NCBI RefSeq assembly: GCF_013409365.1
Contig: NZ_JACCBA010000001.1
Location: forward strand, 496,001-560,000
Direction of reading: 5' to 3'
Source of the DNA: Actinomadura luteofluorescens
Lineage (GTDB): Bacteria; Actinomycetota; Actinomycetes; Streptosporangiales; Streptosporangiaceae
Length of the DNA stretch: 64,000 bases
Position 1 is the first letter of the stretch; the number at the start of each line of letters is the position of its first letter. Positions 35,894 through 64,000 of this stretch are shown piece after piece. Under the pieces are notes generated by a model that saw only the letters and a program-made list of their open reading frames with translations, did no database searches and was not told the DNA's origin. The translations under genes were made by a program, and so were the position numbers.

Positions 35894-36520
35894 TCACCGC
35901 GGTGATGTCTGCGGAACGTCGAGGCCAGAGATCAGCTGAACCGCGGCTCTGGTCAACTCCGCCTTGTTTCCGAGTTTGAGCTTTCCGCGGATGCGTTTCA
36001 CATAGGTGTCCACGGTGTGCCGGCTGATTCCCAGATGCCGGGCGATCTGGCTGTGCGTGTATCCGCCGGCGATGCAGTCGAGGACCTGCTGTTCGCGGAG
36101 CGACAACTGATCGGTGGCCGCGGGAGCCTCCAGGAACGAGGACACCTCGGTCGGAATCACCATTCGTCCCGCCGCCGCCGTTCGGACGGCGTCCAGGAGG
36201 ATGTTGACCGGAGCATCGGGATATAAGACACCGCGGGCTCCGGCGCGCAGGCATCTCACCGCCTCGTTCTTCCTCTCGGGCCCGCGGGCCCAGCTCAGGA
36301 TGAGGACGGAGGTCTTGCGGGACAGTTCCGCGATCTGCCGTCCGCATGCGGCGCCCTCGGACGGGCAGAACCCCAGAAGGACGACGTCGAGTGCGCTCGA
36401 CGGTATGCCCTGGGCATTCGCCTGGGAGATCTCAATGGTTATCTCTGGTGTTCTATTGAACACGTATTGCAGCCCATGCAGGACGACAGGTCGCGGATCG
36501 ATGATGCCGAGACGGATCAT
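35894..36520 (-). CDS. LuxR/NarL-type cluster regulator with a TTA codon
   Basis: A 208-residue regulator with a receiver-like N-terminal domain and a LuxR/GerE DNA-binding domain at about 138-200 (LSLREQQVLDCIAGGYTHSQ, then HTVDTYVKRIRGKLKLGNKA). The receiver is degenerate: where response regulators have 'LLDxxMPG' this one has VVLLGFCPSEG, so the phospho-acceptor Asp is missing. No kinase gene is adjacent. Leu99 is encoded by TTA (complement of 36224-36226), the rare codon that makes secondary-metabolism regulators dependent on the bldA tRNA in Streptomyces and relatives. It lies downstream of the NRPS operon on the same strand and is the likely cluster-situated regulator. Confidence 0.85.
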   Translation of the reverse strand: MIRLGIIDPRPVVLHGLQYVFNRTPEITIEISQANAQGIPSSALDVVLLGFCPSEGAACGRQIAELSRKTSVLILSWARGPERKNEAVRCLRAGARGVLYPDAPVNILLDAVRTAAAGRMVIPTEVSSFLEAPAATDQLSLREQQVLDCIAGGYTHSQIARHLGISRHTVDTYVKRIRGKLKLGNKAELTRAAVQLISGLDVPQTSPR

Positions 36521-36820
36521 TCCACCCCCAACAGATGCGGACTACATACACTTCACGCATGCCGGACGGGCCTTCGTCCGGACCACGCCAGAGAAAGGCA
36601 AGTTACCGTAAAGGAACATGTGCAGAAGGTGTTCCCTGCGGGGGTTTCAGTTTGTTCTGCCCTCAATGATCTATGAGGTCCGCCGGTAATTCAAGGCTCC
36701 TGATCAATAAATGAGGCGATTCTTCCTGGTCGCCAAATAACTGCAGGTAGATCAACATCTGGAACGAATCACGGCAGTCCGTAGCACGGATGCGGGGCCG
36801 GCCGTGCGGCGGCGGACGCG
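36521..36820. other. AT-richer intergenic region between the acyltransferase and luxR genes
   Basis: About 300 bases with clearly more A/T than the surroundings. It must contain the LuxR promoter; TATGTA-like sequence lies on the minus strand near 36,540. A possible minus-strand ORF of about 32 codons (ATG near 36,758, stop at 36,663) has TTA and TTG leucines and no ribosome site, so I do not call it a gene. No strong terminator for the operon is seen. Confidence 0.5.
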
Positions 36821-38173
36821 TTACGGAGCCTGCGGCAACCGCTCCCGCGGCCGGTCGGGGAGCAGGGCCCGCCAATTCACGTCCATGCCCTCCACCCACA
36901 GGCGGCCCACCGCCGTGAGCACGCCGGCCACATCCGAATCGCGGGCCTCGATGGTGGGAAGAGTGCTCAGAACCGTGCCGTCCGGTCGCCGGCCGGGGTG
37001 TTGCCGTACCAGGGTGCTGAGCGTCCGGCCCGCACCGACCTCCAGCAGTATCGGCGCCGGCAGGCGCCACAGCTCGGCCAGCTCGTCGTCGAAGCGGACG
37101 GTCCGCGACATATGCTGCGCCCAGTAATGGGGACTGGTCGCCTGCGCCTCGGTCAGCCACGTTCCGGTGACATTCGACAGCAGCGGAATGGCGGGCGGTG
37201 ACAGCGAGGGCCCGGCGGCCAGTTCACACATCGCCTCCTCGAACGGCTCGAGCATCGCCGAGTGGAAGGCGTGCCGGGTCGGCAGGCGCAGGCTCGCCAC
37301 GCCCGCGGCCGCGAGCCGCCGCTCGAGGCGCTCGACCGCCGCGATGCGGCCGCCGACCACCGAGAGCCGCGGCCCGTCGGCCGCCGACAGCGACAGCTCG
37401 TCGTCGAGGTGCTCGGCGAGCTGGTCGGCGCCGAGCAGCACCGCGACCATCGCGCCCTCGGGCGCGGTCTCGATCAGCTTCGCCCGGCGGGCGACCAGTT
37501 CCAGCGCGTCCTCCGGTGCCAGCACCCCCGCCGCGCACGCCGCGACGTACTCCCCCAGGCTGTAGCCGGCCAGCGCGGTGGGACGGATCCCCAGATCCGC
37601 CAGGTACTCGGCCAGCGCGTACTCCACCGCGAAGACCAGCGGCTGGGCTATCGCGGTCCGGTCCAGATCGGCGGACCGCTCGTGCCGGCCGAGCAGCCGG
37701 GCCAGGTCGAGCTTGCCGTCCGGTCCGCCCGACGGTGGCGCGGACTCGAAGTCCTCCGGGTAGAGGATCTCGCGCAGGTCCCGGCCCAGCCGGTCCATGA
37801 GGGCCTCGGCGCAGTAGTCGAGCGCACGGCGGAAAAGCGGCTCGCTCCGGTAGAGGCCGGCCGCCATCCCGGCGTAGTGGTCACCGACGCCGGGGAAGAG
37901 GAAGGCGACCGGACGCTCGGCAGCAGTCGCCCGCCCGATGAGCGTCTCGCGGGCGGCCGGGGCCTGGAGCCGCCGCGCGGCGTCGGCGCCGTCGCGCGCC
38001 ACCAGCGCCAGGCGGTGCGGCAGCTGCGGGCGGTCATGGGCCAGAGAGCCGGCGACCGCGGCCAGCGGGAGGCTCGGTCTGTCGGTCAGGAATCGAGCCA
38101 GCCCGCGCGCGGCCGCGGCAAGTTCGTCGCTGGAGGAGGCGGACAGAACGACGAGCTCGTATGGCCTGGTCAC
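36821..38173 (-). CDS. Stand-alone malonyl-type acyltransferase
   Basis: A 450-residue discrete acyltransferase of the polyketide synthase AT type. It begins with sequence like the KS-AT linker (VVLSASSSDELAAAARGLAR), followed by FLFPGVGDHY, the nucleophile elbow LAGYSLGEYV (Ser about residue 203) and HAFHSAMLEPF (about 300). HAFH is the motif linked to malonyl rather than methylmalonyl specificity. The usual gap before the active site carries an insert rich in Asp and Arg. GTG 38173 follows GAGAGGAAC. No ketosynthase or PKS acyl carrier protein is present in this window, so it must act in trans on a protein encoded beyond the edge or on an NRPS carrier domain. Confidence 0.88.
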   Translation of the reverse strand: MTRPYELVVLSASSSDELAAAARGLARFLTDRPSLPLAAVAGSLAHDRPQLPHRLALVARDGADAARRLQAPAARETLIGRATAAERPVAFLFPGVGDHYAGMAAGLYRSEPLFRRALDYCAEALMDRLGRDLREILYPEDFESAPPSGGPDGKLDLARLLGRHERSADLDRTAIAQPLVFAVEYALAEYLADLGIRPTALAGYSLGEYVAACAAGVLAPEDALELVARRAKLIETAPEGAMVAVLLGADQLAEHLDDELSLSAADGPRLSVVGGRIAAVERLERRLAAAGVASLRLPTRHAFHSAMLEPFEEAMCELAAGPSLSPPAIPLLSNVTGTWLTEAQATSPHYWAQHMSRTVRFDDELAELWRLPAPILLEVGAGRTLSTLVRQHPGRRPDGTVLSTLPTIEARDSDVAGVLTAVGRLWVEGMDVNWRALLPDRPRERLPQAP

Positions 38174-38251
38174 ACTGTTCCTCTCTGTGTGAGGGCCCCC
38201 GGGGACCGCCCCTCCGGGCGGCCCCCGGGGCCTACGGTGCTGCGAGCGGGG

Positions 38252-38476
38252 TCAGGAACCGCCGGCGACGGTCTCGGAGTCCATCTGCCTGCGCAGGCTC
38301 AGTGGCCGCATGTCCGTCCACGCCTGGTCGATGTGGGCCAGGCACTCCGGCTTGGTCCCCCGCGTGCCCTCGGCGCGCCATCCCTCCGGGATCTCGCGGT
38401 CCTCCGGCCAGATCGAGTACTGCTCCTCGTGGTTGATCACGACCCGGTAGATCCGTTCGTCGTCGTCCTCGAACAT
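38252..38476 (-). CDS. mbtH: MbtH-like protein
   Basis: A 74-residue MbtH-like chaperone of adenylation domains. The hallmark NHEEQYSIWPEDREIPEGW is followed by LAHIDQAWTDMRPLSLR. ATG 38476 has a GAGAGGAGAG ribosome site; the longer upstream frame is not used. MbtH proteins bind and activate A domains of the same cluster, so one or more A domains here are probably MbtH-dependent. It lies 38 bases after the ABC exporter gene and 78 bases before the acyltransferase. Confidence 0.97.
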   Translation of the reverse strand: MFEDDDERIYRVVINHEEQYSIWPEDREIPEGWRAEGTRGTKPECLAHIDQAWTDMRPLSLRRQMDSETVAGGS

Positions 38477-38514
38477 GTCTCTCCTCTCGCGTTCTTCCAG
38501 AGATTCCGTGCCGC

Positions 38515-40365
38515 TCAGTCGTGCTCCACCCGTCCGGCGTGCGCGTCCCCCGGAACGGATTCGTCGGCCGCCCACAGGTGCCGCATCTCCGCGCAGTCCT
38601 CCAGCAGCTCCTCCAAGGTGCCGACGGCGACCGTCTCGCCTTCGACGAGCACCACGATCTGGTCGGCTCGCCGGAGGATGGACCGTCGGTGCGAAACGGC
38701 CAGGATCGTGGCGCCGTCATCGTCCAGAAGCCGGTCCCACAACCGGAGCTCGGTGGTGACGTCCAGCGCGTTGGACAGGTCGTCGAAGACCATCAGGTCG
38801 GTGCGGCGCACCGCCATCCGGGCGGCGGCGATCCGCTGCATCTGGCCGCCGGACAGGCGCAGGCCCCGCGGCCCGATCACGGTGTCGAGGCCCTTGTCCA
38901 GACCGGCGATGTCGTCTTCGAGCACGGCGAGGCGCACCGCCTCGGCCACCTCCGCCGGAGAGGAGGAGGCGCCGAGCAGGATGTTCTCCCGGATCGTGCC
39001 GCTGAACAGCCGGGGGACCTGCGGCACGAAGCTCGACCGCGGCGGGATCAGGAACGTCCCGGGATCGTCGACGGGCGCGCCGTTCCACAGGACGGTGCCG
39101 CGCTCGGCGGGGAGCAGCCCGAGGAGCACCTGCAGAAGGGTGCTCTTGCCGGAGCCGATCCTGCCGGTCACGACCGTGACCGTGCCGGCGGGCAGGTGGA
39201 GGTCGATGTCGCGGATGCCACGCGAGGTCCCGGGATAGCGGGCGGTGAGGCCGTGCGCCTGCAGCAGGCGCAGCGGCGCGGGACGGTCCCCGGGCGGCGC
39301 CGGCCGCGGCGGCTCGCTCCGCAGGTAGGTCTCCGTGCGGGCGATCACCGCTGATTCGTCGTCGGCGAGTTCGGCCACCCGGCGCATGGAGAGTTCGGCC
39401 TTCTGGTACCGCGCGAAGAACATGCCCAGCGCGGTCACCGCCTCGGTGATGAACTGGATGTAGAAGACGAAGAGCGCCAGGTCGCCCACGGTGAAGTCGC
39501 CGCCGCGCATGCTCGCCGCGGCCAGCAGCAGCACGAACCCGGTGCCGAGCGCGGCCGTCCCGTTGAACAGGGACGTCTGCACGGTGGTCAGGAGCACCTC
39601 GCGGATCGCGAACCGCAGCCTGACGGCGTTGGCGTCCCGCAGCCGCGCGACGAACCGCTCCTCGGCGCGCCCGACCTTGATCGCCTGAACGCCGCCGACC
39701 GCCTCCCCGACGACGCTGCTCACCTCCGAGGCCGCCCGGCGGCCGGCGTGCTGGTACTCGCGCAGCGGCCTGGCCAGCGCCCGGCTCGCGAGCACCATGA
39801 CCACCACGGGGACGACGAGCCCGAGGGTCACGACGGCGTCGATGCCGAGCATGATGATCAACGCGCCCACGGCGATGATCAACCGGGCGAGGTTGGACGC
39901 CGACCAGATCGCGAAGACGCCGACCTCGTCGGTGTCCTCGCCGAACCGGCTGACGGCGTCGCCGCCGGTGCGGTCCAGCGCCCGTCCCGCGGGCCTGCGC
40001 AGGATCGCGCCCAGCGCGTTGACCTGCAGCGCCGCGCGGATCCGGTAGGTGAAGTGCGGTTCGACCCGGCTGAGGATCACGCCGTACCAGACGGCCACCT
40101 TGGCGGCCTCCGCCGCCGCCACCAGGGCGATGAGCGACCATGCCGACATGCCGGCCCGCCCGGTGCCGCTGAGGGTGTCGAAGACGAGCTGGAGCAGCAG
40201 TCCGGTGGCCAGGAGCGCGCCCCGCAGCAGGACCCACAGTCCGATCAGGCAGAGGTAGGTGGGGGCCGATCGGGACAGCAGCGGTACCAGCCGCGACCGC
40301 CGGACGGGACGTCCTTGAGGCGCCGCGGCCAGCGGGTCCGACCGGCGTGTCCGCGGGGCCCTCAT
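38515..40365 (-). CDS. ABC exporter half-transporter (degenerate NBD)
   Basis: A 616-residue half-transporter with six transmembrane helices (about 35-320) and a C-terminal nucleotide-binding domain. Walker A is TGRIGSGKST, the signature is LSGGQMQR and the Walker B region is LMVFDDLSNALD, where the usual catalytic Glu after the Asp is replaced by Asp. This degeneracy is typical of one subunit of heterodimeric exporters. ATG 40365 overlaps the stop of its partner (ATGA at 40362-40365). The pair is likely the export pump for the peptide and may give self-resistance. Confidence 0.9.
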   Translation of the reverse strand: MRAPRTRRSDPLAAAPQGRPVRRSRLVPLLSRSAPTYLCLIGLWVLLRGALLATGLLLQLVFDTLSGTGRAGMSAWSLIALVAAAEAAKVAVWYGVILSRVEPHFTYRIRAALQVNALGAILRRPAGRALDRTGGDAVSRFGEDTDEVGVFAIWSASNLARLIIAVGALIIMLGIDAVVTLGLVVPVVVMVLASRALARPLREYQHAGRRAASEVSSVVGEAVGGVQAIKVGRAEERFVARLRDANAVRLRFAIREVLLTTVQTSLFNGTAALGTGFVLLLAAASMRGGDFTVGDLALFVFYIQFITEAVTALGMFFARYQKAELSMRRVAELADDESAVIARTETYLRSEPPRPAPPGDRPAPLRLLQAHGLTARYPGTSRGIRDIDLHLPAGTVTVVTGRIGSGKSTLLQVLLGLLPAERGTVLWNGAPVDDPGTFLIPPRSSFVPQVPRLFSGTIRENILLGASSSPAEVAEAVRLAVLEDDIAGLDKGLDTVIGPRGLRLSGGQMQRIAAARMAVRRTDLMVFDDLSNALDVTTELRLWDRLLDDDGATILAVSHRRSILRRADQIVVLVEGETVAVGTLEELLEDCAEMRHLWAADESVPGDAHAGRVEHD

Positions 40366-42140
40366 GCCAGCGCCTCGTTGGCGGCGAGCAGGCGGGAGAA
40401 CTCCGAGGACGGGTCGGCGACCAGCCGGTCCCGGGGGCCGTGCTCGACGACGCGGCCCTCGCGGAGCAGGAGCACCTCGTCGACGGAGCCGAGGGTCTCG
40501 AGGCGGTGCGCCACGATGATCGCGGTGCGTTCGGCGAGCAGGCGCTCCATGGCCGTGTCGAAGGCCCGCCGGCTCGCCGGGTCCAGCCTGGACGCGGCCT
40601 CGTCCAGGAGCACCAGGCCCGGGTCCTGGATCAGGACGCGGGCGAAGGTCAGCAACTGCCCCTGCCCGGCCGACAGCCCGGTGTCGCCCGGGCCGAGGAG
40701 AGTGTCCAGGCCCGCGGGCAGGCTCTCCAGCCACTGGCGCAGTCCCACCTCCGCGAGCGCCTCGCGCACCCGGGCGTCATCGACCGTCGCGTCGAAGAGC
40801 GTGACGTTGTCGCGGACCGTGGCGGCGAACAACTGGACCTCCTGCGTGACCAGACCGACCTGGCCGCGCAGTGAGGACACCGAGATCTCCCGCAGGTCGC
40901 GGCCGTCGAGCCGGACCGCCCCCTCGGTGGGGTCGGCGAACCGGAACAGCAGGCGTATCAGGGTGCTCTTTCCGCTGCCCGTGCGGCCGATGACGGCCAG
41001 CCGGGCCTTCGGCCGAAGGCGGAAGGAGACGTCGCGGAGCGCGGCTTCTTCGGGCTGGTAGCTGAACGAGACCCGGTCGAGTTCCACGGCTGGCGCCCCG
41101 GCGGGCAGCGGGGCGCCGCCGGTGTCGACCGCGCTGCGCTCGCCGAGCAGGCCGTGGATGCGCCGCAGCGCCCCGAGCGCGGCTTCGAGATCATGGAACT
41201 GCGAGGTGATCACCAGCATCGGGGTCTGCACCATGACCGCGTAGACGACCAGGGTGTAGGCCGCGCCGAGCGTCATCTGGTCGGCCGTGTAGAGCCACGC
41301 ACCGGCCGCGAGCGCCATGACGAACCCCGCCGACGCCAGCGACTGCGCGGCCGCCGGCCAGCGCACGCCCAGCAGCGCCGCGCGGCGGCTGGCCCGGAAC
41401 AACGTCGCGGCGTGCGTCCAGAAGCCGTGCACGGTGTGTTCTTCGGCTCCGTTGGCCCGCAGGTCGGGAAGGCCGTTCAGGCGTTCTTCGAAGAATCCGA
41501 GCAATTTCGCGTTGGCCTCCCGCTGGGCCGCCATCGCGGGCACGGCGGTGCCGACCAGCCGCCGCAGCAGGACGAAGGAGACGGTGACGAAAGGGGCGTA
41601 CACCAGGCCGATTCGCCAATCCTGGACGAACAGCGCGATGCCGATCCCGACCACCAGCAGCAGGTTGGAGAACACGAGCAGGAACATCTGCGAGAAATAG
41701 TTGGCCAGCTTGCTCACGTCTCCGTCGATCCGGTCGATCAACTCGCCGGGAGCGTGCCGCTCATAGAACGACATGTCCAGCCGGAGGCAGTGTGCGGTGA
41801 GATCGGCGCGCAGCTCGTTCGTCGCGCTCCAGGCCACCCGGGCGCCCCGGTACTCGGCGACGATCCAGATCACCTGCGCCACCACCGCGACCGCCAGGTA
41901 GGTCGCGCCGAGCCCCAGCAGGGCCGACAGCGGGGCACCGGAGCGGACGCCGTCGATGAACCTGCCCAGCAACTGCGGGTTGGCCACCTGGAGAGCCGTG
42001 GAGACCAGTGTCGTCACCGCGAGCACGGCGGCGACGGTGCGGTGCGGCCCCAGATAGGTGCGAAGTGTCCTCGCGGCGCTCGGTACCACGGTGTCCTCCG
42101 CGTTCCCGGTGCTCGAAGGCTCGACATTCGCATGCGCCAT
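40362..42140 (-). CDS. ABC exporter half-transporter (canonical NBD)
   Basis: A 592-residue half-transporter with six helices followed by an ATPase domain: Walker A IGRTGSGKST, signature LSAGQGQLL (a recurring variant of LSGGQ) and Walker B LVLLDEAASRLD with the catalytic Glu present. It complements the partner subunit, whose Glu is missing. ATG 42140 was chosen because AAGGAATGTGGT precedes it; the 15 extra upstream codons have no support. It lies 92 bases after the last NRPS gene of the operon. Confidence 0.92.
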   Translation of the reverse strand: MAHANVEPSSTGNAEDTVVPSAARTLRTYLGPHRTVAAVLAVTTLVSTALQVANPQLLGRFIDGVRSGAPLSALLGLGATYLAVAVVAQVIWIVAEYRGARVAWSATNELRADLTAHCLRLDMSFYERHAPGELIDRIDGDVSKLANYFSQMFLLVFSNLLLVVGIGIALFVQDWRIGLVYAPFVTVSFVLLRRLVGTAVPAMAAQREANAKLLGFFEERLNGLPDLRANGAEEHTVHGFWTHAATLFRASRRAALLGVRWPAAAQSLASAGFVMALAAGAWLYTADQMTLGAAYTLVVYAVMVQTPMLVITSQFHDLEAALGALRRIHGLLGERSAVDTGGAPLPAGAPAVELDRVSFSYQPEEAALRDVSFRLRPKARLAVIGRTGSGKSTLIRLLFRFADPTEGAVRLDGRDLREISVSSLRGQVGLVTQEVQLFAATVRDNVTLFDATVDDARVREALAEVGLRQWLESLPAGLDTLLGPGDTGLSAGQGQLLTFARVLIQDPGLVLLDEAASRLDPASRRAFDTAMERLLAERTAIIVAHRLETLGSVDEVLLLREGRVVEHGPRDRLVADPSSEFSRLLAANEALA

Positions 42141-42232
42141 ACCACATTCCTTCACGGTGGATTTTCCATCGTTCGGGGCGATCACCCCATGGCCATGATG
42201 TCGGTCAACGCCCTTCGCTCAACGTTCTTTGG

Positions 42233-45200
42233 TCAACGTTCTTCGGTCAATGCCGTCAACAGCGTGTCCAGTCCGCCTTGGTCGAGTCCCGATTCGGGGA
42301 AATCGGAGGGGGTGTAGCCGCCGGCTCCCGGCCCGGTGCAGTGCGCGATCAGTCCGCGGAGGCTCGCGAGGGTCTCCTCGGCGAGCCGCTCGATCGTCCG
42401 GGCGCCGTAATGCGCCGCGCTGTAGGAGAAGGTGATGTCCAGATGCCCGTCGATGGTGATCGCGTCGACGTCGAGCAGGTGCGGGCGCGCGTTCTCCGGG
42501 TGGAAGGCGGGCGGCAGCGGTTCCGGTGCCCGCCGCAGCCGCAGCGCCGGTCCGTCATGGCCGCCCGGTTCCGTGTTCTCGCCGGCGATGGCGGTGTCGA
42601 ACTGCCCCAGGTAGTTGAAGCCGACGCGGGGCGCCGGCCGCGCCGCGAGGGTCGATGCGTGCACCGCGTGCAGGTAGCGCAGCAGACCGTAGCTCAACCC
42701 GTGATGCGGAACCGCGCGCAACTGCTCCTTGACCGCTTTGAGCGCCGCTTCGGGATCGTCGCCCGGGGGCAGGGTGAGCCTCACCGGTGCGATGGAGGTG
42801 AACCAGCCCAGCGTGCGGGACAGGTCCGCTCCGTCGACCAGGTGCTGTTCCCTGCCGTGTCCCTCCAGCCACAGCGACGCGTGATCCGACAGGGTCGACC
42901 GGGTCAGCGCCATCGTCAGCGCGGTGAGCAGCACGTCGTCGATGTGGGTCCGGTAGGCCCGCGGAACCTCGCGCAGCAGCAGCCGGGTGTCCTCCGCGTC
43001 CAGGCCGACCGTCGTCTGCTCGGTGTCCGCCTCGCGGGCGTGCTCCGGCGGATGCGGCAGGTCGGGCTCCGGACCGGCGGGGTCCACCGAGGTCTGGGAG
43101 AGCCAGAAATCCAGGTCGGCCTCTGTCTCGGGGCTGTGCGCCAGCTCGCCCAGGGCCCGTGACCAGGCGGAGATCGGCGTGGTCGCGGGTGCAAGGCGCA
43201 CCGGCGCTCCGGTGGCGGCCTGCCGGAACCCCGCGTGGAGATCGTCCAGCAGGATGCGCCAGGACACCCCGTCGATGATCAGGTGGTGGGCCAGCAGCGC
43301 CAGCCGGCGCCGGTCCGGCCGGCCGCCGTCGATCACCAGCACGCGCAGCAGGGGCGGGCTGCCCAGGTCGAACTCGGAGGCCGCCGCCAGCGCCTCGTCC
43401 AGCGCCGCGTCCCAGTCGTCGCGGCCTGCCACGTCGACCAGGGTGACCGCCGCGTCGGTCGCGGCGCGGTCGACGGCCCGCACCTCGGCGCGCCATCGGC
43501 CGTCCGCGCCGCTTCGCCCGAAGCGCAGGCGAAGCGCCTCGTTCCGGTCGACGAGGGCGGCGACCACGTCCCGCAGGTGCTCGGCGGTCCGGGCGCAGTC
43601 GGCGTCGGCGTCCAGCGCGAACAGCCATCCCTGGTTCCAGTGGCCCGGGCGGGCGAGGTCCTGCTCGAAGAAGCGGTGCTGGACGGGCGTGAGCGGCAGG
43701 TCGCCGGTGTCGGCGGCCGATCCCTTCCGGGCGCGCCGCACGCCGACGGGGCGGGTCATGGACTCGGCCACGGCGGCGAGTTCGCGGACGGTCTGCTTGT
43801 CGAAGAACTGCCGCGGCGTGATCCGCAGCCCCTCCTGGGCGGCCCGGGAGACCACCATGATGCTGAGGATCGAGTCGCCGCCGAGTTCGAAGAAGTTGTC
43901 CAGCGCGCCGACCCGGTCCACGCCGAGCACGTCGGCCCAGATCGCACTGAGGGTCTTCTCGGCCGGGTCGCGCGGCGGGACGAACTCCTGCGCCAGCTCG
44001 GGACGGACGCCGTCGGGAGCCGGCAGAAGCGCCCGGTCCACCTTGCCGTTCGCGGTCACTGGGAGGGTGTCGAGCCAGACGAACACGGCCGGGACCATGT
44101 AGTCGGGCAACCGCGCGGCGAGGTGGTCGCGCAGCTCTGAGACGGGGACCCGTTCGGCGTCCCGTGCCGGGAGCACGTAGGCCACGAGCCGCCGTGAGGA
44201 GGTGTTCTCCTGCTCCTGGGCCGTCACCACCACGTCGCGCACCGCGGGATGGCCGGAGAGCACCGCCTCGATCTCCCCCAGCTCGATGCGGAACCCGCGG
44301 ACCTTGACCTGGAAGTCGGCCCTGGCCACGAACTCCAGGGACCCGTCGGGCAGCCAGCGCACCAGGTCTCCCGTCCGGTACAGCCGGTCGCCGGTGCCGA
44401 ACGGGTCCGGGACGAACCGTTCCGCGGTCATGCCGGGTCGCGCCAGGTACCCGCGTGCCACGCCCGAGCCTCCGACGTACAGCTCGCCCGGGACGCCCAC
44501 GGGCACGGGGCGCAGTTCCCGGTCGAGCACGTAGCCCCGGGTTCCGGTCAGCGGCCGCCCGATGGGCACCCGGGCGACGTCGGAGCGGTCCGGCACCGGC
44601 CAGATCACGCACGACACCGACGTCTCGGTGGGGCCGTAGACGTTGGCGGCCTCGGCGTGGCAGACCTCGCGGAACGCGTTGACCAGGCCGGCCGGCAGCG
44701 CCTCGCCGGCGATCAGGACGAGCCTCAGGTGGTGGCCGAGCCGGCGTGCGGGGTCGACGAGCACGGTGTTGAGCAAGGACGGCACGTAGGACACGACGGT
44801 CACCTCGTGCTCGTCCATCACCTGGGCGAGGCGCTCGGGGTCCTTGGCGTCGGTGTCCGGCACCACCAGAGCGGCGCCGGTCAGGAACGGCCAGAAGACC
44901 TCCCAGACCGAGGCGTCGAATCCGACCGAGGTGCGCTGCGCGATCCGGTCGTCCGGTCCGATCGGGAACGTGCGCTGCATCCATCCCAGATGGTTGAGGA
45001 CGCCGCGGTGGGTGGCCATCACGCCCTTCGGACGGCCGGTCGAGCCCGAGGTGCAGATGATGTACAGCAGGTTGTCCGAGGACACGGCCGAAGCCGGAGG
45101 GGTGGACGGCGCGCGGTCGATCTCCTCCGCCTCGGCGTCCAGGTTCAGCACCCGCGCCGCGCCGTCCGGCGGCAGCCGGTCGGCGGCGCCGCCCCCCGTC

Positions 45201-52770: not shown

Positions 52771-52829
52771 CTCGACCTCCTTGCTGCGTTGGACCGGCGG
52801 GCGGCCGGGCGGCCGGCCGGGCACCGGCC

Positions 52830-53810: not shown

Positions 53811-56428
53811 CGGCCCGCTCCCGCGTCGCCGGGCGCGGCATCGTCCAGGCATGCCTCCAGCCGCCGGGCCACCTCGGGGACGGCCGGTCCGTAGACGAAC
53901 TCCAGATGGGAGCCGGCGTCGACGTCCTCGACCTTCAGGCCGCCGATCGGGAAGCGGGCCCACTCCACCGCCAGGTCGCGGTCGGCGCGGTCCTTCTGCG
54001 TCAGCAGCGTCACCGTCCCCGGATAGGACGGGCGGTAGGCGGAGACGGCCCGCGCGTTCAGCTCCAGGCGGCGGCAGAACGACGCGAACTCGGCCGGCTC
54101 GACTTCGGGCGGCAGGTCCCCGGCACGTTTTCCGGCCTCCAGCACCCGGTGCAGCTGCGCCTGCCGGTCCAGACCGCGCAGGTCGTCCTCCGGCGGGGAG
54201 AACAGCAGCCAGCCCGCGAGGATGAACGCGAGGTCGGGGTCGGGCGGAGCGTCGGTGAGCGGTGCCGTGTCCAGCAGGACCACCGTGCCCACCCGGTCGC
54301 CCGCGGCGTGCAGGCTGTTGGCGACCGCCAGCGCGAACCTGCCCGCCCCCGAGAACCCGCACAGGTGGTACGGCCCCTCCGGGTGCACCCGGCGCACTTC
54401 CTCGGCGTAGCGGTCCGCCATCTGCTCCATGGTCAGCACGCCCGGGTCGGCGCCGCCGTGGAAGAAGCCGTCGTTCTGGACGCCGTAGAGCGCCCGGCCG
54501 GTGCCCAGCGCCCCGGCCAGCTCGAAGTAGTGGTACAGCTCTCCGAGCACCGCGTGCAGGAAGAACAGCGGTGGACGCGGCCCGCCGGGCTGCAACTCCA
54601 CCACGAACTGGGGGTCGGCCGAGGTCGTCTCGCTGGACCGGATCCAGTCGGCCAGGGCCTCCACCGTGCGCGTCGCGTACAGGTCGTGCAGGGTTACCGA
54701 CCGGCCGGTCAGCTTGCTCAGCCGGTCGACCACCAGCATCCCCGGCATGGAGCTGCCGCCGAGATCGAAGAACTCGTCGTGCGCGCCGATCGGCGTGACG
54801 CCGAGCACCTCCGACCAGACCTGTGCGACGTAACGCTCCCAGCGGTCGCGCGGCTCGACGAAGCCGGGGGAGGTCGACCAGCCGGACGGCGCGGACTCCG
54901 CGTCCGGGTCGCCGGCCTCCGGTGCGGACACCGGTGCGGTTCCCGGTCGCGGGTCCGGCAGCTGGGTGACGGGCAGATCGGGATCGGCGGTGACGGCGGC
55001 GAGGACCTCGACCAGGTATCCGGCGAGGCCCTCGATGGTTTCCGCGTCGAAGATGTCGGTGGCGTATTCGAAGGTCCCGGCCAGCCGTCCTCGGTGTTCG
55101 TTCAGGTAGAGCGACAGGTCGAACTTCGCGCCGGCGTCGCTGGGAACGGTCACCGGCTCGGCGAACGTCCCCGGGAGGTCGAGGTGGCCCTGCGGCACGT
55201 TCCCGAACCCGAAATTGACCTGGAAGAGGGGGTTGTAGGCGGTGTCGCGCGTCGGCGCCAGATGTTCGACGAGCTTCTCGAAGGGCAGGTCCTGGTGCTC
55301 GAACGCGCGCAGGGACCGCTGGCGCACACGGTGGAGGAGCTGCCGGAACGACGGCCGGTCGGACACGTCCGCGCGCACCACCACGCTGTTGACGAAGAAG
55401 CCGACCAGGCCCTCGAGGTCGGGGTGGCGGCGCCCGGCGACGGGCGTTCCCACGACGAGATCGGTCTGCCCCGACCATCGCGACAGCGCGGCGACGAACG
55501 CGGCCAGCAACGCCATGAACAGCGTGACGTCGGTGCTACCGCTCAGGTCCCGGGCCGCGCGCAGCAGGTCGCCGGGCACCTCGAACTCGTGACGGGCGCC
55601 GCGGCCCGTCCGCGCCCGCGGCCTCGGCCGGTCGGTGGGCAGAGCCAGCAGGTCCGGCGCGCCGGCGAGCTCCTCCTTCCAGAAGGCCGCCAGTTCGGAA
55701 ACCAGGTCGTCGGTCAGGCGCTCGCGCTGCCAGACCGCGAAATCGCCGTACTGGAGGGGCAGCGGCGGCAGCACCGGGTCCGGCGGAGCCGGATCGTCTC
55801 GCGACGCGGTGTAGAGCCCCCCCAGTTCGGAGAGGAACACGCCGACCGACCACGCGTCGGTGATCGTGTGGTGCATGGCGACGCCGAACAGGTGGTCCCG
55901 CGGACCCATCCGCACCAGCCGCGCCCGCCAGAGCGGCGCGGCGGTGAGATCGAAGCCGCGCTCGACGTCGCCGGCCAGGATCCGTTCGGCCGCGGCGCGC
56001 GGGTCCGGCGCGTCCGACAGGTCGGTCACCTCCCAGGGCACGGCGACCGAGTCGTGGACGATCTGGACGGTCCGGTCACCGGTCCAGGCCAGCGACGTCC
56101 GGAGGATCTCGTGCCTGCCGGTCAGGTCGGCCAGTCCGGCGCGCAACCGGTCGGCGTCGAGGTCGCCGCGCAGCCGCCCGGCGGTCGAGACGACATAGGC
56201 CGCCGAGTCCGGCCGGAGCCGGTCCAGCAGCCACAGCCGCTCCTGGGCGAAGGACGCGGGCAGCGGGGCACCGGTGCGGGGCGCCGGTCGCGGATCCGCA
56301 GGGCTCGTCCCCGCGGTGCCGTCCCCCGCCGGGCCGCGCATCCGGCGCAGGACGAGTTCGCGTGCCTGCGGGCTGAGGGCGGCCAGGCGCTCGGCGAGGC
56401 CGGACGGACCGGAGGTTGCTTCATTCAT
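53807..56428 (-). CDS. NRPS terminal module C-T-TE without A domain
   Basis: An 873-residue NRPS. The C domain (about 50-490) is LCL-like ([14 protein letters not shown]) with HHTITDAWS at about 186, so the last Gly of HHxxxDG is Ala. It passes directly to a T domain ([14 protein letters not shown], Ser about 558) and then a thioesterase (about 600-860: [13 protein letters not shown], nucleophile [11 protein letters not shown] with Ser about 694, and a probable catalytic His in [10 protein letters not shown]). No adenylation domain lies between C and T. It should receive an amino acid loaded in trans, or pass the chain to the TE for hydrolysis or cyclisation. The start at ATG 56428 overlaps the upstream gene by eight bases. 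Confidence 0.92.
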
Positions 56429-59400
56429 GTGACTTCTCGCCTTCCGCGAGCCGGGCGGCGACCTCTTCGTCGGACAGGCCGGCCACCTCGTCCATCAGCG
56501 CGTCCAGGTCGGCCGCTTCGTTGAGCAGGCGCTCGACCGTGGCCGCGCATCCGGCGATGGTGGGGGCGGCGAACAGCTCGGGGAGGGTGTAGTCGGCCGG
56601 GAAGGCTTCGCGGATCCGCCCCACGGCGCGGACGGCCATGAGGGAGTCTCCGCCGAGGGTGAAGAAGTTGTCGTGGACTCCGATCCGGGAAACGCCCAGA
56701 ACCTCGCCCCACACCTCCGCCAGCACCCGCTCGGCCGACGACCGCGGCTCCACGAACCGCTCCCCCAAACGCGGCCGCTCCCCCTCCGGAACCGGCAACG
56801 CCCCCCGATCCACCTTCCCGTTCACCGTCAACGGCAACGAACCCAGCCACACGAACACCGCCGGCACCATGTACTCCGGCAACCGCCCACCAACGAACCC
56901 CCGCAACTCCTCCACACCCACCTCACCCCCCACCCCCGAAGCCACCACATACGCCACCAGACGAACCACCCCACCCCCACCATCAGAACGCGCCACCACC
57001 ACCGCATCCCGCACCCCCCGATGCCCCACCAAAACCGACTCCACCTCCCCCAACTCCACCCGAAAACCACGCACCTTCACCTGAAAATCAACCCGCCCCA
57101 CAAACTCCAAACCACCACCATCAACCGACCACCGCACCAAATCCCCCGTCCGATACAAACAACCCCCCGAACCCCCGAACACATCAGGCACAAACCGCTC
57201 CGCCGTCAAACCCGGCCGCCCCAAATACCCACGCGCCAAACCAGCACCACCCACGAACAACTCACCCACCACACCCGGCGGGCATGGCTCCAGTTCTCGA
57301 TTGAGCACGTGCACCCGCGTGTTGGCGATCGGAAGGCCGATGGGCACGGTGCCTCGCCGCTCGGCGAACCCCCGGGGAAGGGCCTGGTAGGTCGCGTAGA
57401 TCGCCGATTCGGTCATCCCGTAGATGTTCGCGATCCTGCCGTTGCGGAACCGCCGGTCCCACTCGACGGCGAAGGAATGCGGCAATGGCTCGCCGCCATT
57501 GAAGACCCGCCGCAGCCGCGGCAGCGGATCATCGATGCCGCGCTTCGCCGCGGCGGCCATGAACAGATCGAGCTGGCGCGGCACGAACTGGCAGTAGGTG
57601 ACGTCGTGCCGGTCCAGCGCGTCGTACAGCGCGTCCGGGTCGCGGACCGTCTCGTCGCCGACGACGGCCAGCGCGGCTCCGTTGCAGAGCGGCCACACCA
57701 CCTCGCAGACCGAGTCGGTGAAGCTGACGGGGGTCTTGAAGGCGACCACGTCGCCGGGACCGCAGCCGAGTTCCTCCTCCAGCCACCGCATCGTGTTCAG
57801 CACCGCCCGGTGACTGACCATGACGCCCTTCGGCGTCCCGGTGGAGCCCGAGGTGTAGATCACGTAGGCGAGGTTGCCGGGGAGCGCCCGCGCCGGCAGC
57901 GGGCGCTCGGGCCCGCCCCCGCCCGCGCCGCCGTCCGCCGGAAGCGAGTCCAGGCAGACGGTCCGGACCGCCTCCCCGCGGTCGGCCGGGAGCCGGTCGA
58001 GGAGATCGCTGCGGGTGAGCACGGTGCGGCAGCCGCTGTCCCCGATCATCCAGGCGATGCGGGCCGCCGGATACCCGGGATCGATCGGGACGTAGGCGGC
58101 CCCGGACTTCAGCACCGCCAGGGCCGCCGTCACGAAGGACACGGACCGCTCCAGCAGGACCGCCACCCGTTCCTCGCCTCGGGCGCCCTGCTCCACGAGC
58201 GTGCGCGCCAGCCGGTCGGCCCGCCGGTCCAGCTCCCGGTAGCTCACCCGAGCGTCGCCGTCCACGACGGCAGTCGCGTCGGGCGTCCGCCTGACCTGCT
58301 CCTCGATGAGCTCCGCGACGGTGTGCGGGGGCGAGAACCGGCGTTCGGTGGCGTTGACCTGGTCGCGCCGGCGGTGGGCAGCCGTTTCCGTGGGAAAGAC
58401 CGGGACGGTGCTGACGGGCCGGTCCGCGCCGGCGGACAGGCCCGTCAGTGCCGTGAGCACGGACTCGGCGAGGAGCGCGGCGGTCCCGCCGTCGACCAGC
58501 GCCAGGTCGTGCACGGCCCGTATCTCCAGCCGCTCGCCCGGCACCGCGAACATCGTGATCGGGTAATGGGTGGTCTCGAACCCACTCAGGCCGCTGTACC
58601 GGTATCCGGGATCGAGCTGCCCGGTCTCGTCCAGCCTCGGATAGTTCTGGACGACCAGCACGGACTGGAACAGCTCCTGCCCGGCGGACAACTCGCTGCA
58701 CCGCTGCACCTGGGAGAGCGGGGTGTGCTCGTACTCCAGGGCGGCGGACTGCCGCGCGTGGAGCCCGCGCAGCCACGTCCCCACCCGGTCGCCGGGCCCC
58801 GACGCCACACGGACCGGGACGGTGTTGGTGAGGAGCCCCACCATGTCCTGCACTCCGGGAAGGTCGCCGCTTCGTCCGGAGACGACCTGGCCGAAGACGA
58901 CGTCGCCGACCCCGGTGTACCGCATCAGCGTCAGCGCCCACGCCGCCTGCACCATGATGCCGATCGGCACCCGGTACGTCCGGGCGGCCGCACCGACGCG
59001 TTCCGTCGCCTCCGGCGAGAGCGCCGCGGTGTGCTCGGCCACCCCCGTCCGGCCGCCGGAGCCGCCGGGCCCCGCGACCGGCAAGGGCGTCGGCTTCGTG
59101 AAACCGCGCAGCGCTTCCCGCCAGTGGCGCCGGGCGTCGTCCTGGTCGCGCAGGCGCGTCCATTCGACGAAGTCCCGGTACGGGGCGCGGTCGGGTGGCG
59201 GCATCACCTCTCCGGCGCGGGACGCCGCACCGTGGCGCACCAGGTCCCGCATCACCATCGCCGTGCTCCAGCCGTCGAGCAGGATGGCGTGGTACGTCCA
59301 GACGAACTGGTAGTCGTCCTCGCCGAGCCGGAGGAGCGCGTAACGGGCCAGGGGCGCGTGGGACAGCTGGAACGGCTCGTTGCGGTCCCGGTCGAGGAAG

Positions 59401-59753
59401 GCGGTGAGGCGCTTCCGCATGGCGTCAGGTGGCAGGCCGCGCCAGTCCTGCGTGTCGAACCGGACCGGCACTCTTCTGTAGACCACCTGGACCGGCTCGT
59501 CCGCGCCTTCCCACAGGAAGGCCGACCGCAGTGCCGGATGCCAGGCCACCGTCTGCTCCCAGCTCTCCCGGAAGGCGACCGGATCGAGTCCGGACAGCAG
59601 AGCCGTGGTCTGGCTGAGATAGACCGCGGAGTCCGCCTCGCGCAGCGTGTGGAACAGCAGTCCCTGCTGGAGCGGGGACAGCGGATGGATGTCCTCGATG
59701 ACCTCGGCCGCCGCCGGCCGTTGCCGCTGCGCCGGTCCCGCCGTGTCACTCAT
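56421..59753 (-). CDS. NRPS module C-A-T with atypical C and A domains
   Basis: An 1110-residue NRPS. The C domain (about 20-470) begins HPLSPLQQGLLFH (DCL-type), fitting an upstream epimerase, but its active site is HAILLDG (about 157): the catalytic second His of HHxxxDG is Ala. The A domain (about 480-990, [14 protein letters not shown] about 636) has SFTDSVCEVV where GrsA has FDASVW, so Asp235 is replaced by Thr and an Asp occupies 236. My alignment gives T-D-C-Q-F-G-I-I-Y, unassigned. The T domain is FFTLGGDSL (Ser about 1033). The last ~210 residues through the T-domain Ser appear identical to the next upstream NRPS. ATG 59753 overlaps the upstream stop. Confidence 0.92.
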   Translation of the reverse strand: MSDTAGPAQRQRPAAAEVIEDIHPLSPLQQGLLFHTLREADSAVYLSQTTALLSGLDPVAFRESWEQTVAWHPALRSAFLWEGADEPVQVVYRRVPVRFDTQDWRGLPPDAMRKRLTAFLDRDRNEPFQLSHAPLARYALLRLGEDDYQFVWTYHAILLDGWSTAMVMRDLVRHGAASRAGEVMPPPDRAPYRDFVEWTRLRDQDDARRHWREALRGFTKPTPLPVAGPGGSGGRTGVAEHTAALSPEATERVGAAARTYRVPIGIMVQAAWALTLMRYTGVGDVVFGQVVSGRSGDLPGVQDMVGLLTNTVPVRVASGPGDRVGTWLRGLHARQSAALEYEHTPLSQVQRCSELSAGQELFQSVLVVQNYPRLDETGQLDPGYRYSGLSGFETTHYPITMFAVPGERLEIRAVHDLALVDGGTAALLAESVLTALTGLSAGADRPVSTVPVFPTETAAHRRRDQVNATERRFSPPHTVAELIEEQVRRTPDATAVVDGDARVSYRELDRRADRLARTLVEQGARGEERVAVLLERSVSFVTAALAVLKSGAAYVPIDPGYPAARIAWMIGDSGCRTVLTRSDLLDRLPADRGEAVRTVCLDSLPADGGAGGGGPERPLPARALPGNLAYVIYTSGSTGTPKGVMVSHRAVLNTMRWLEEELGCGPGDVVAFKTPVSFTDSVCEVVWPLCNGAALAVVGDETVRDPDALYDALDRHDVTYCQFVPRQLDLFMAAAAKRGIDDPLPRLRRVFNGGEPLPHSFAVEWDRRFRNGRIANIYGMTESAIYATYQALPRGFAERRGTVPIGLPIANTRVHVLNRELEPCPPGVVGELFVGGAGLARGYLGRPGLTAERFVPDVFGGSGGCLYRTGDLVRWSVDGGGLEFVGRVDFQVKVRGFRVELGEVESVLVGHRGVRDAVVVARSDGGGGVVRLVAYVVASGVGGEVGVEELRGFVGGRLPEYMVPAVFVWLGSLPLTVNGKVDRGALPVPEGERPRLGERFVEPRSSAERVLAEVWGEVLGVSRIGVHDNFFTLGGDSLMAVRAVGRIREAFPADYTLPELFAAPTIAGCAATVERLLNEAADLDALMDEVAGLSDEEVAARLAEGEKSHE
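56644..57281 (-). repeat. 638-bp A-T block, copy 1 (in C-A-T NRPS)
   Basis: By eye identical to 61346-61983 (offset 4702). It encodes the C-terminal A subdomain (from VVGELFVGGAGLARGYLG) through the T-domain LGGDS. Codons end in T or TTG far more than in the rest of the gene. Confidence 0.9.
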
Positions 59754-62700: not shown

Positions 62701-64000
62701 CAGGTCCGGTCCCGCGGAGGCCCGCTCGCTCGCCCGGCCGGAGGTGACGAGGATCCGCACGCCGGCGTCGCCGAGCACGTAGGAGATCCGCTCGGCGGGG
62801 TGATCCGGATCCACCGGGACATAGGCCCCGCCCGACTTGACGACCGCGAGCAGCGCGACGACCAGTTCGATCGAACGATCCAGGCAGACCCCCACCCGCA
62901 CCTCCGGACCGGCCCCGAGTGCGCGCAGGTGATGAGCCAGCCGGTTGGCCCGCGTTTCCAGCTCGCCGTAGGTCAGCCGGTCCGTGCCGCACACCACCGC
63001 CACGTCCTCGGGCCGCCGCGCGGCCTGCTCCGCCACCAGCGCCCCAAGGCACGTGCGGGGCGGGCCGCTCTCCCGGTCCCCGCCCGATCGCAGCAGCAGC
63101 CGCCGCCCCCTCTCCCCCAGCAGGTCCAGGTCGCGGCAGGCGCTGTCGGGACGGGCCAGCGAGTCGGTCACCACCGCGAGGAAGGACTCCATCAGCTGCC
63201 CGGCGGCGGGATCCGCCAACGCGTCGCCGTCGTATCCGAGCGTGAACCGCATCCCGTCCCCGGTGGCCTGGCAGGACAGGCGGACCACGAACCTGTCGTG
63301 GTGGCCGTACGTCTCGGCCGGGGCGGCGCCGGCCTGGCCCGCGGGCCAATGCTCGGCGTCGAAGTCGAAGCCGATCGGGAACCATGACGGCCGGCCCGGT
63401 GCGGCGGGCGGAACGCAGCGCTCCCAGCTGTACCACTCGGCGTGGGCGTCGCCCGCCTCGATCTGGTCGGCCGCCTCGGAGGCGGCCGCCGAGACGGCGA
63501 GGTCGAGCGACCGGTCGAGCCGCGCGGGCAGGCTGACGGTCAACGGCCCGGAGCAGCCCCGCAGCTCCTCGTGCCGGCGCAGGTCCGTCCCCACGCCGAC
63601 GACCAGGGCGCCGGCTCCGGTCGTCCTTCGTAGCAGCACCTGCCAGCAGGTCAGCAGCCAGCCGCGCGCCTTCTTCGGCGTGGGGCACCGGCGGCGCAGC
63701 CTCATGGTCTCTGCGGGAGAGAGGCGCCCGGTCAGGGTCTTGGGACGGAACGGACCGAGCCGGTGGTTACGCTGCCCCGGCAGCTCTATCGGCTGATCCC
63801 ACCCGGCGCAGCGAGACCGCCAGAACTCCCGGGCCGTCGCCCCCTCCGGCAGTTCGGCCATCTCGTTCCACCAGGCGGCCACACCCTCGAACGGCAGGCC
63901 GCTTGAAGCGGCGCGGGTGGCGCGGCCCGCCGCGCGTTCGACGACCTCATGGGCCAGGCTTCGCAGCGTCGTGGCATCGGCGCAGATGGCGGGAAGCGAG
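59746..64000 (-). CDS. NRPS C-A(Thr)-T-E, 5' end beyond the window
   Basis: An NRPS whose frame stays open to the right edge, so the N-terminus is missing. What remains is the C-terminal lobe of a C-like domain (ATAREFWRSRCAGWDQPIEL), an A domain ([14 protein letters not shown] near 62,590), a T domain (FFTLGGDSI near 61,350) and an E domain (HHLVIDAVSW near 60,775, [18 protein letters not shown]). The A-domain pocket by alignment is D-F-W-N-V-G-M-V-H, a close match to threonine codes. The module should therefore load L-Thr and deliver D-(allo)-Thr. It is the most upstream cluster gene seen, and translation is coupled to the next gene by an eight-base overlap. Confidence 0.93.
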   Translation of the reverse strand, partial: SLPAICADATTLRSLAHEVVERAAGRATRAASSGLPFEGVAAWWNEMAELPEGATAREFWRSRCAGWDQPIELPGQRNHRLGPFRPKTLTGRLSPAETMRLRRRCPTPKKARGWLLTCWQVLLRRTTGAGALVVGVGTDLRRHEELRGCSGPLTVSLPARLDRSLDLAVSAAASEAADQIEAGDAHAEWYSWERCVPPAAPGRPSWFPIGFDFDAEHWPAGQAGAAPAETYGHHDRFVVRLSCQATGDGMRFTLGYDGDALADPAAGQLMESFLAVVTDSLARPDSACRDLDLLGERGRRLLLRSGGDRESGPPRTCLGALVAEQAARRPEDVAVVCGTDRLTYGELETRANRLAHHLRALGAGPEVRVGVCLDRSIELVVALLAVVKSGGAYVPVDPDHPAERISYVLGDAGVRILVTSGRASERASAGPDLPTVRMDEDAAAIGRWPAEAPPPNTVPANLLYVIYTSGSTGRPKGVMVTHADLVRLLTTAQPWFSFGPDDVWTLFHTVTFDFAAWELWGALVNGGRLVVVPTALTRSPERFRALLARERVTVLNQTPGAFRNLLAAEEADPAGERPALRVVVFGGEALMPGMLAGWFARHGDQGPRLVNMYGITETTVHATYHPLSPADVPRAATDSAEAADSPSSERSPIGVPLADLSAYVLDKELHPVPPGVVGELFVGGAGLARGYLGRPGLTAERFVPDVFGGSGGCLYRTGDLVRWSVDGGGLEFVGRVDFQVKVRGFRVELGEVESVLVGHRGVRDAVVVARSDGGGGVVRLVAYVVASGVGGEVGVEELRGFVGGRLPEYMVPAVFVWLGSLPLTVNGKVDRGALPVPEGERPRLGERFVEPRSSAERVLAEVWGEVLGVSRIGVHDNFFTLGGDSITSIVVMSRAARRGLRITPWQFFENQTVAGQAEAAVPVVAVQDRADPAGQAAGPVPLTPIQRWFFDQKFFHPGHYNQGWLFHVPAAVDADRLAAAFTGLLERHDALRLRFPRDSRAPGGRRAEYTGQGAPPELTALRRVDLSKEAQWEPALARVLADAQDFDLERDPPLRALLIDGGRDDRHRLALIAHHLVIDAVSWRILLDDLRGAYRRLAGGGEPGTPDATTSFAAWARALTELPGAVAADLDFWRGQSPSGRWEVPLDHQAGGTGTYGAADHVDGLLGAGETTALLRDLPAIHHSRVDEVLLTALALAMTETFGITRLYVDVEGHGREQHLVEGADLSRTVGWFTAIAPLLLRLPDGADPGDALAAVKEQLRAVPHGGVGHGILRHLDPVRGRALAEPPAPQVSFNYLGQFDANAESPETRTPDDRLYLAAAPEPMPPPQHPGNRRTHLLDVTAAVVGGRLRLRVGYSRAHHDRATIDRLTGAVVARLGELIDHCGRPGGTRFHTLLDKALALAPKTMADVTEARPDE
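61346..61983 (-). repeat. 638-bp A-T block, copy 2 (in C-A(Thr)-T-E NRPS)
   Basis: The second copy of the block at 56644-57281. Identity starts at the T-domain Ser codon and stops sharply at the GVVGE motif; beyond both ends the two genes differ at once. Confidence 0.9.

Follow-up and report, generated by a model that had tools for sequence, protein, structure and literature searches.

A gene cluster of Actinomadura luteofluorescens predicted to make the antibiotic GE23077 or a very close congener

Introduction

GE23077, an RNA polymerase inhibitor of Actinomadura sp. DSMZ 13491 that sits in the nucleotide sites of the bacterial enzyme, is described as a cyclic heptapeptide of D-dmaDap (a residue built on 2,3-diaminopropionate, Dap), D-Ser, D-Val, 3R,4S,L-dihydroxyglutamine (dhGln), D-allo-Thr (aThr), D-isoserine (iSer) and L-aminomalonate (Ama) (PMC3994528). 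The polymerase residues to which it binds do not tolerate replacement if the enzyme is to stay active, and its resistance spectrum is accordingly unusually small (PMC3994528). Aminomalonyl units are also known from zwittermicin, whose aminomalonyl-acyl carrier protein (ACP) is reported to be formed by enzymes of the 3-hydroxyacyl-CoA-dehydrogenase-like (3HCDH) and acyl-CoA-dehydrogenase-like (ACAD) families, with the seryl-AMP synthetase domain ZmaJ loading the serine (PMC6395733). Here we describe a nonribosomal peptide synthetase (NRPS) cluster that begins within a 64,000-nucleotide stretch of Actinomadura luteofluorescens (C1:496001-560000 of a single-contig 9.62 Mb genome; hereafter the window) and very probably, judging from its genes, directs the biosynthesis of GE23077 or a very close congener. 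An earlier note on this DNA had called the product unrecognised; that description no longer holds, as the module string matches a known Actinomadura antibiotic. Its statement that the locus matches no known cluster may hold literally, because no printed GE23077 cluster was found in the literature searched (subscription papers were mostly outside it, so a printed one is possible), but the module string does match GE23077. Such a gene cluster would open GE23077 biosynthesis, supply and analogue making to study.

Results and Discussion

The predicted assembly line follows GE23077

The window edge cuts the cluster. The earlier note had proposed extending the sequence right of 64,000, and with that DNA added the operon was seen to continue for 20 kb, giving a cluster of about 48 kb (35,894 to 84,315). 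Coordinates above 64,000 continue the window numbering (genome position = +496,000), and genes were called over 109 kb with a simple caller, whose starts may shift by some codons. The minus-strand LuxR, malonyl-type acyltransferase (AT), MbtH, ABC pair, five NRPS and SbnA-like genes named in the note were all recovered at about the same positions. All cluster genes up to and including g51 lie on the minus strand, and g52 to g55 on the plus strand.

Adenylation (A) domain codes were extracted at positions set by GrsA numbering. The protein g37 (46909..52824), with the layout half-condensation (C)-A-thiolation (T)-C-A-T, gave DVWQVTTDDK for its first and DVWHISLIDK for its second A domain; g44 gave DAWQCGLVDK, which is Gln-like, and g41 (59746..64440, C1:555746-560440, crossing the window edge; a dead C domain followed by A-T-epimerisation (E)) gave DFWNVGMVHK. 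The codes of g36 (42233..46912; C-A-T-E) and g40 (56421..59753; C-A-T) were DAWSLAVVSK and TDCQFGIIYK. Pocket codes were identical in three of three species (this genome, G007 and G027) except for one I/L exchange in the Ser pocket. In g40, alignment to solved A domains showed that Asp235 is lost and that an Asp stands at 236 instead, a shift that we take to be a mark of beta-amino acid pockets, as in the beta-alanine code. Among the printed codes compared, Thr has DFWNIGMVHK, Gln DAWQFGLIDK and DAWQTGLIDK, beta-hydroxy-Dab DVWQMIGDDK, and Ser DVWHLSLIDK, the last being exactly the Ser pocket of the G027 copy; Dap pockets are described there as Dab-like. The Thr (then epimerised) and Ser readings of the earlier note were confirmed, and its proposal of Dap is supported both by the Dap/Dab-like pocket and by the SbnA-type 2,3-diaminopropionate enzyme gene (52830..53810; TIGR03945, 382 bits against the NCBI curated cut-off of 350). 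The two pockets that it left unassigned are indeed present and now fit Val (g36) and isoserine (g40), assignments that rest on fit to the known GE23077 structure. The Dap/Dab-like, Ser, Thr and Gln-like codes were fixed before that structure was read, at a time when GE23077 was already suspected.

The C domains fell into two clades, one formed by g36 C, g40 C and g45 C1 and the other by g37 C, g39 C and g45 C2, which from recognised N-terminal motifs we take to be of donor-D and donor-L type, respectively. Donor-D-type domains stand after Ser, Val and Thr, and donor-L-type domains after Dap, Gln and isoserine. Furthermore, GGDSI...ITPxQFF, the E-partner type, is common to the Ser, Val and Thr T domains, and an E domain follows two of these three. 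The last module, g39 (53807..56428), is a C-T-thioesterase (TE) protein, which agrees with the A-less terminal module of the earlier note; its LGGSS and GFSGAG motifs are kept in three of three species. The TE, the C-domain types and the GE23077 match together gave the protein order g37-g36-g45(g44)-g41-g40-g39, that is Dap-Ser-Val(E)-Gln-Thr(E)-beta-amino acid-[Ama], with the TE at the Ama module. The genes themselves stand in another order, with g45 first, although each of the blocks g45-g41-g40-g39 and g37-g36 is collinear with its genes.

Compared with GE23077, the seven residue-incorporating T domains stand in the cyclic order of the peptide with the TE at Ama, Val and isoserine being placed by fit. 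We took the ring order from two residue lists of the source rather than from its figure: the stereochemical list given above and the section on RNA polymerase contacts, which runs dhGln, aThr, iSer, Ama, dmaDap, Ser, Val and so has the same cyclic order (PMC3994528). Both unusual residues are covered, isoserine by the beta-amino-acid-like pocket and Ama by the aminomalonyl genes. The C clades and E-partner T domains predict D at Ser, Val and Thr and L at Gln, as in GE23077, so that the D/L pattern agrees at four of the five alpha-amino acids with a domain-predicted configuration (Ama not counted); cis E domains are present for Val and Thr. The genus is also that of the reported producer, and the closest named relatives of the g50 ligase all belong to Actinomadura (A. 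luteofluorescens 97%, Actinomadura sp. DSM 109109 87%, A. mexicana 85%). In addition, the computed [M+H]+ of the predicted ring was 804.337 with a C5H6O acyl group and 806.3527 with C5H8O, the latter equal to the value listed for GE23077 B1/B2 (PMC8941997), from which the acyl group of GE23077 B can be inferred to be C5H8O. In that study, two Actinomadura strains also gave ions 805 and 806 ([M+Na]+, low accuracy), which were left unassigned (PMC8941997). For a GE23077 derivative with an amino group added and CO2 lost, the printed values are MH+ 777.80 calculated and 778.20 found (PMC3994528), and our predicted composition of A minus CO2 plus NH3 has an average MH+ of 777.81. The one configuration of the described antibiotic that the domains do not predict is D-Dap.

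Proposed biosynthesis

In the route that we propose, where every reaction, all enzyme activities and production itself are predictions from sequence, g37 would start the chain with Dap and Ser, and g36 would add Val and epimerise it to D-Val. The dead A domain of g45 (70419-74837, C1:566419-570837; C-A-T-C) would be bypassed, its T domain being charged with Gln in trans by the neighbouring g44 (67220-70390, C1:563220-566390; C-A-T), in which the A domain is intact and the C and T domains are dead. Two TauD-family oxygenases, g46 and g47 (74910-76987; HxE...H motifs in both genes), would install both hydroxyls of dihydroxyglutamine. Subsequently, g41 would add Thr and epimerise it to D-allo-Thr, g40 would add isoserine, and g39 would accept aminomalonate and close the ring. 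The GNAT g52 may attach the C5 acyl group to Dap, and the two ABC exporter halves (38515..40365 and 40362..42140, each with ABC_membrane and ABC_tran) may export the product.

The non-canonical domains that the earlier note had pointed out are supported. In g44 the C domain lacks HHxxxDG and the T domain reads LGARPL in place of the serine, g45 has lost the core motifs of its A domain, and the N-terminal C of g37 lacks its HHxxxDG half; these motifs are dead in all three species. Nei-Gojobori dN/dS estimates against G007 and G027 were raised in most dead domains (g44 T 1.28 and 1.19; g44 C 0.65 and 0.50; g41 C 0.65 and 0.55; g45 A 0.47 and 0.57), and the g44 A domain was constrained (0.27 and 0.32), with 0.43 and 0.27 for the g45 T domain; single values are rough because short domains hold few changes. 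This pattern fits g44 acting as the A domain that charges the g45 T domain.

A proposed aminomalonyl cassette with a seryl-tRNA synthetase-like ligase

Four adjacent genes would supply the aminomalonyl unit: an ACP (g48, 76991-77293, C1:572991-573293), a 3HCDH (g49, 77331-78188), a seryl-tRNA synthetase (SerRS)-like amino acid:ACP ligase (g50, 78185-79444, C1:574185-575444; 419 aa) and an ACAD (g51, 79441-80712). g50 would charge serine onto the free ACP, g49 and g51 would oxidise seryl-ACP to aminomalonyl-ACP, and the stand-alone acyltransferase g32 (36821..38173; Acyl_transf_1) would pass aminomalonate to the C-T-TE module as an aminomalonyl-ACP:T-domain transferase. The trans acyltransferase named in the earlier note is supported.

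The ligase g50 is related to the amino acid:[carrier protein] ligase Bll0957 (PDB 3mey; E 1.1e-35, query 125-403) and also to methanogen-type SerRSs. Like Bll0957, it has the catalytic core, the Cys/Glu/Cys motifs and a nearby ACP gene; it differs in its N-terminal 124 residues, which do not align to the 346-aa chain, in lying within an antibiotic cluster, in its probable substrate, serine, and in a score below the curated cut-off of the NCBI ligase family (NF005479, 157.9 bits against 357). The Cys/Glu/Cys motifs of the atypical SerRS core, presumably the zinc site, were kept in 16 of 16 aligned ligases, g50 included; this alignment covered 16 of 24 loci, L019, L020, L022, L023, L026 and L067-L069 being left out. 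Regarding g51, the nearest solved structures are prolyl-ACP dehydrogenases, so that a different aminoacyl-ACP bond could also be its target for oxidation. The motif of g32 is GYSLG, and its best solved relative is the ZmaA AT (4qbu, E 1.3e-68). Tabulated ATs for ACP-linked extenders have GYSFG (ZmaA) or GYSLG (ZmaF), and CoA-using ATs of the same table have GHSxG (PMC4207774). By our own count g32 has neither Arg nor Lys at the first RXR position, which also matches the tabulated pattern for ACP-linked extenders.

The zwittermicin A pathway (zmaF to zmaJ) shares the dedicated ACP, the 3HCDH-like and ACAD-like enzymes and a GYSxG AT with the present cluster, at the level of families, the ZmaA AT being the one sequence compared. 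It differs at both ends: serine is loaded there by ZmaJ and here, by prediction, by the SerRS-like ligase, and the aminomalonyl unit is delivered to a polyketide synthase there, but would be delivered to an NRPS C-T-TE module here. No stand-alone serine A-domain protein showed up when the cluster genes were scanned with Pfam. With a SerRS-like ligase in place of ZmaJ, the pathway would work like that of zwittermicin without being identical to it. Two features look new, a SerRS-like ligase starting aminomalonyl-ACP and a stand-alone AT loading an NRPS module with aminomalonate; a printed SerRS-like aminomalonyl loader was not found in the literature searched, which left out most subscription papers, so one may exist. 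The cluster links protein-synthesis enzymes with peptide antibiotics, and both serine loading by the ligase and amino acid charging of an NRPS module by the AT are directly testable.

The cassette in other genomes

We compared 21 loci with a relative of the ligase (47-88% identity). L072 was dropped because L018 already represents its contig, a single genome holds both L020 and L023, and weaker ligase matches (30-38% identity) were left out of this neighbourhood comparison. An ACP match was present in 20 of the 21 loci and a 3HCDH match likewise in 20, L019 having neither, and in L069 one match counted lies 6 kb away on the opposite strand. An ACAD of at least 56% identity was found in nine: L014 (G027) and L039 (G007), both GE-type, and L015, L018, L024, L045, L046, L070 and L071. 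Two Streptomyces plasmids carry the five cassette genes side by side, with the ligase annotated as hypothetical protein only; no Bacillus was among the plasmid matches listed (best 25 each of 964, 288 and 76 records). Including this genome, 12 loci have the ligase, ACP, 3HCDH and close ACAD, and a GYSxG AT was found in 11 of them, adjoining the cassette in eight and, in the three GE-type loci, lying at the other end of the cluster; the 20 kb examined for L071 contained no GYSxG acyltransferase. L018 shows GMSQG as its first motif and GYSIG after it. The polyketide-synthase ATs with a readable motif had GHSLG in five of five.

Regarding possible acceptors, the cassette lies beside a ketosynthase-T protein without AT in L045 and beside a ketosynthase gene in both plasmids. 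In L015 it adjoins an NRPS with five C stretches, two T and no A, and in L018 one with four C stretches, three T and one A, both genes running off the left end of the locus; at this place L024 encodes an ordinary A-T protein. Taken together, the data make it reasonably probable, on a modest balance, that this is a recurring actinobacterial cassette in which a SerRS descendant charges serine onto a dedicated ACP, the seryl group is oxidised to aminomalonyl-ACP, and a stand-alone GYSxG AT delivers it to AT-less ketosynthase modules (forming a C-C bond) or to A-less NRPS modules (forming an amide bond, as here), so that in GE23077 the AT would replace an A domain. Among 394 genomes of the class, 4 have a ligase match at 1e-60 or better, and among 341 of the family 9 do, this genome being counted in both; at 1e-3, 12 of 65 genomes of the genus gave a match.

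A second type of neighbourhood was seen in L016, L020, L021, L022, L025, L026 and L068, with the ligase, ACP and 3HCDH and an ACAD that is absent or of at most 35% identity. A GHSxG acyltransferase match lies just downstream, in six gene-called loci as one protein with a condensation-like region.

Precursor supply and self-resistance

Between the assembly-line genes lie a ThrC-like gene (g42, 64584-65915) and a pyridoxal phosphate (PLP) aminotransferase-like gene (g43, 65926-67179), which matches the GntC (196 bits, cut-off 415) and VioD (TIGR03947, 120 bits, cut-off 390.9) models below their cut-offs. By elimination, g43 is a candidate for the isoserine route. Searches of solved structures with one TauD enzyme, the aminotransferase and the ThrC-like enzyme indicated no substrate. 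Outside the cluster, a second SbnA gene adjoins an SbnB gene at C1:7775101-7777065, both over curated cut-offs and 2 kb from other NRPS condensation-domain matches.

The rpoB motifs PIETPEGPN and NRALMGSNMQRQ were intact in nine of nine copies read, two of them from this genome. We take these motifs to hold the E. coli GE-resistance sites 565, 566, 681 and 684, which are the sites covered, other GE-contact residues being partly read. Since these RNA polymerase sites are unchanged, what is left as a guess for self-protection is export through the ABC pair. The two rpoB matches here lie at C1:5460749-5462002 and C1:9467050-9468303; two were also found in G007 and G008 and one in three other Actinomadura, and the search returned none for A. 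mexicana (G027).

Alternative readings

Several points weigh against assigning the cluster to GE23077. Its D-Dap is left without explanation, as the Dap module lacks an E domain and the C domain after it is of the donor-L type, and E activity on Ser would have to act in trans. The g36 pocket is unlike the printed Val code DALFIGGTFK, and no printed Val code matched among those compared. Where isoserine comes from and what g42 and g43 do have no assignment. A whole-genome search placed SbnB outside the cluster only; the SbnA/SbnB pair at the distant locus could supply the missing step. With the known GE-resistance sites kept in both rpoB genes, there is no sign of target-based self-resistance. 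Lastly, in the equally rough dN/dS estimates the g37 half-C was not clearly relaxed (0.39 and 0.35), live domains were as high as 0.49 (both A and T of g40), 0.45 (E of g41) and 0.43 (C of g37), and the small ACP gave 0.69-0.91, so that the pattern is not clean. A rival reading, which overlaps the preferred one, is an undescribed congener that has the same scaffold but differs in its acyl group or in the residue at the Val or beta-amino-acid position: the Val and isoserine pockets were assigned through fit to the known structure, and one species lacks the KAS III gene together with the small gene beside it. However, the remaining residues, their order, the D/L pattern and the genus all fit GE23077, and the codes are the same in three of three species bar the I/L exchange, so we regard a distinct congener as unlikely, if still a real minority chance.

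Since g32 belongs to the malonyl-type AT family and retains a KS-AT linker region, it might be thought to use malonyl-CoA and to cap or extend the peptide with a malonyl unit. This is improbable, given its GYSLG instead of GHSxG, a first RXR position that by our count holds neither Arg nor Lys, and the ZmaA AT as nearest solved relative; moreover, at other loci a GYSxG AT stands beside the ligase, ACP and dehydrogenases, and Pfam scans of the cluster genes gave no ketosynthase except the KAS III. Malonomycin was also considered, but the malonate of that compound has a different origin, and the idea was given up. A tuberactinomycin- or capreomycidine-type peptide might be suggested by the SbnA gene, the TauD enzymes, the VioD/GntC-like PLP enzyme and the Dap-Ser didomain protein, which resembles the VioA layout. 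The earlier note had reported no VioC/VioD-like genes, which is correct for the window, but beyond it lie the two TauD genes and the PLP enzyme. The latter scores far below the models (VioD 120 bits against 391, GntC 196 against 415), and the tuberactinomycin family is not known to have two E domains, a Thr module, a TE or an aminomalonyl cassette, which makes this reading hardly credible. A siderophore was likewise rejected on gene content, so that the view of the earlier note, neither siderophore nor tuberactinomycin, stands. GE23077 or a very close congener is thus the product that we favour.

Extent and conservation of the locus

The block from the LuxR-type regulator (35894..36520; GerE domain), its left border, to g55 (end 84,315) shows the same order of genes in G007 and G027, two further Actinomadura genomes. 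Genes g32-g52 and g55 are 79-93% identical to their counterparts there, and the LuxR gene, in the same place, 83% and 85%. The 60 kb examined in each genome reach about 6-7 kb past LuxR and 5-6 kb past g55. Within them, g24-g31, to the left of LuxR (about 6 kb on that side), found no match, and of g56-g63, to the right of g55, g58 alone matched (34-36%, to ABC genes). The remaining members of the block are an MbtH-like protein (38252..38476; PF03621, 81 bits) and g55, which looks like a membrane transporter and has no Pfam match.

The KAS III gene g53 and the small gene g54 beside it occur in G027, but nothing in G007 matches them, and the g52-g55 gap there is 0.6 kb; the pair therefore occurs in two of the three clusters (L014 6747-8074 in G027). 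Additionally, the adjacent genes at 56421-59753 and 59746-64440 have a 638-bp tract in common, 100% identical here, 98.3% in G007 and 99.7% in G027. As orthologues of different species are about 90% identical, these same-genome values of 98.3-100% point to gene conversion within each species.

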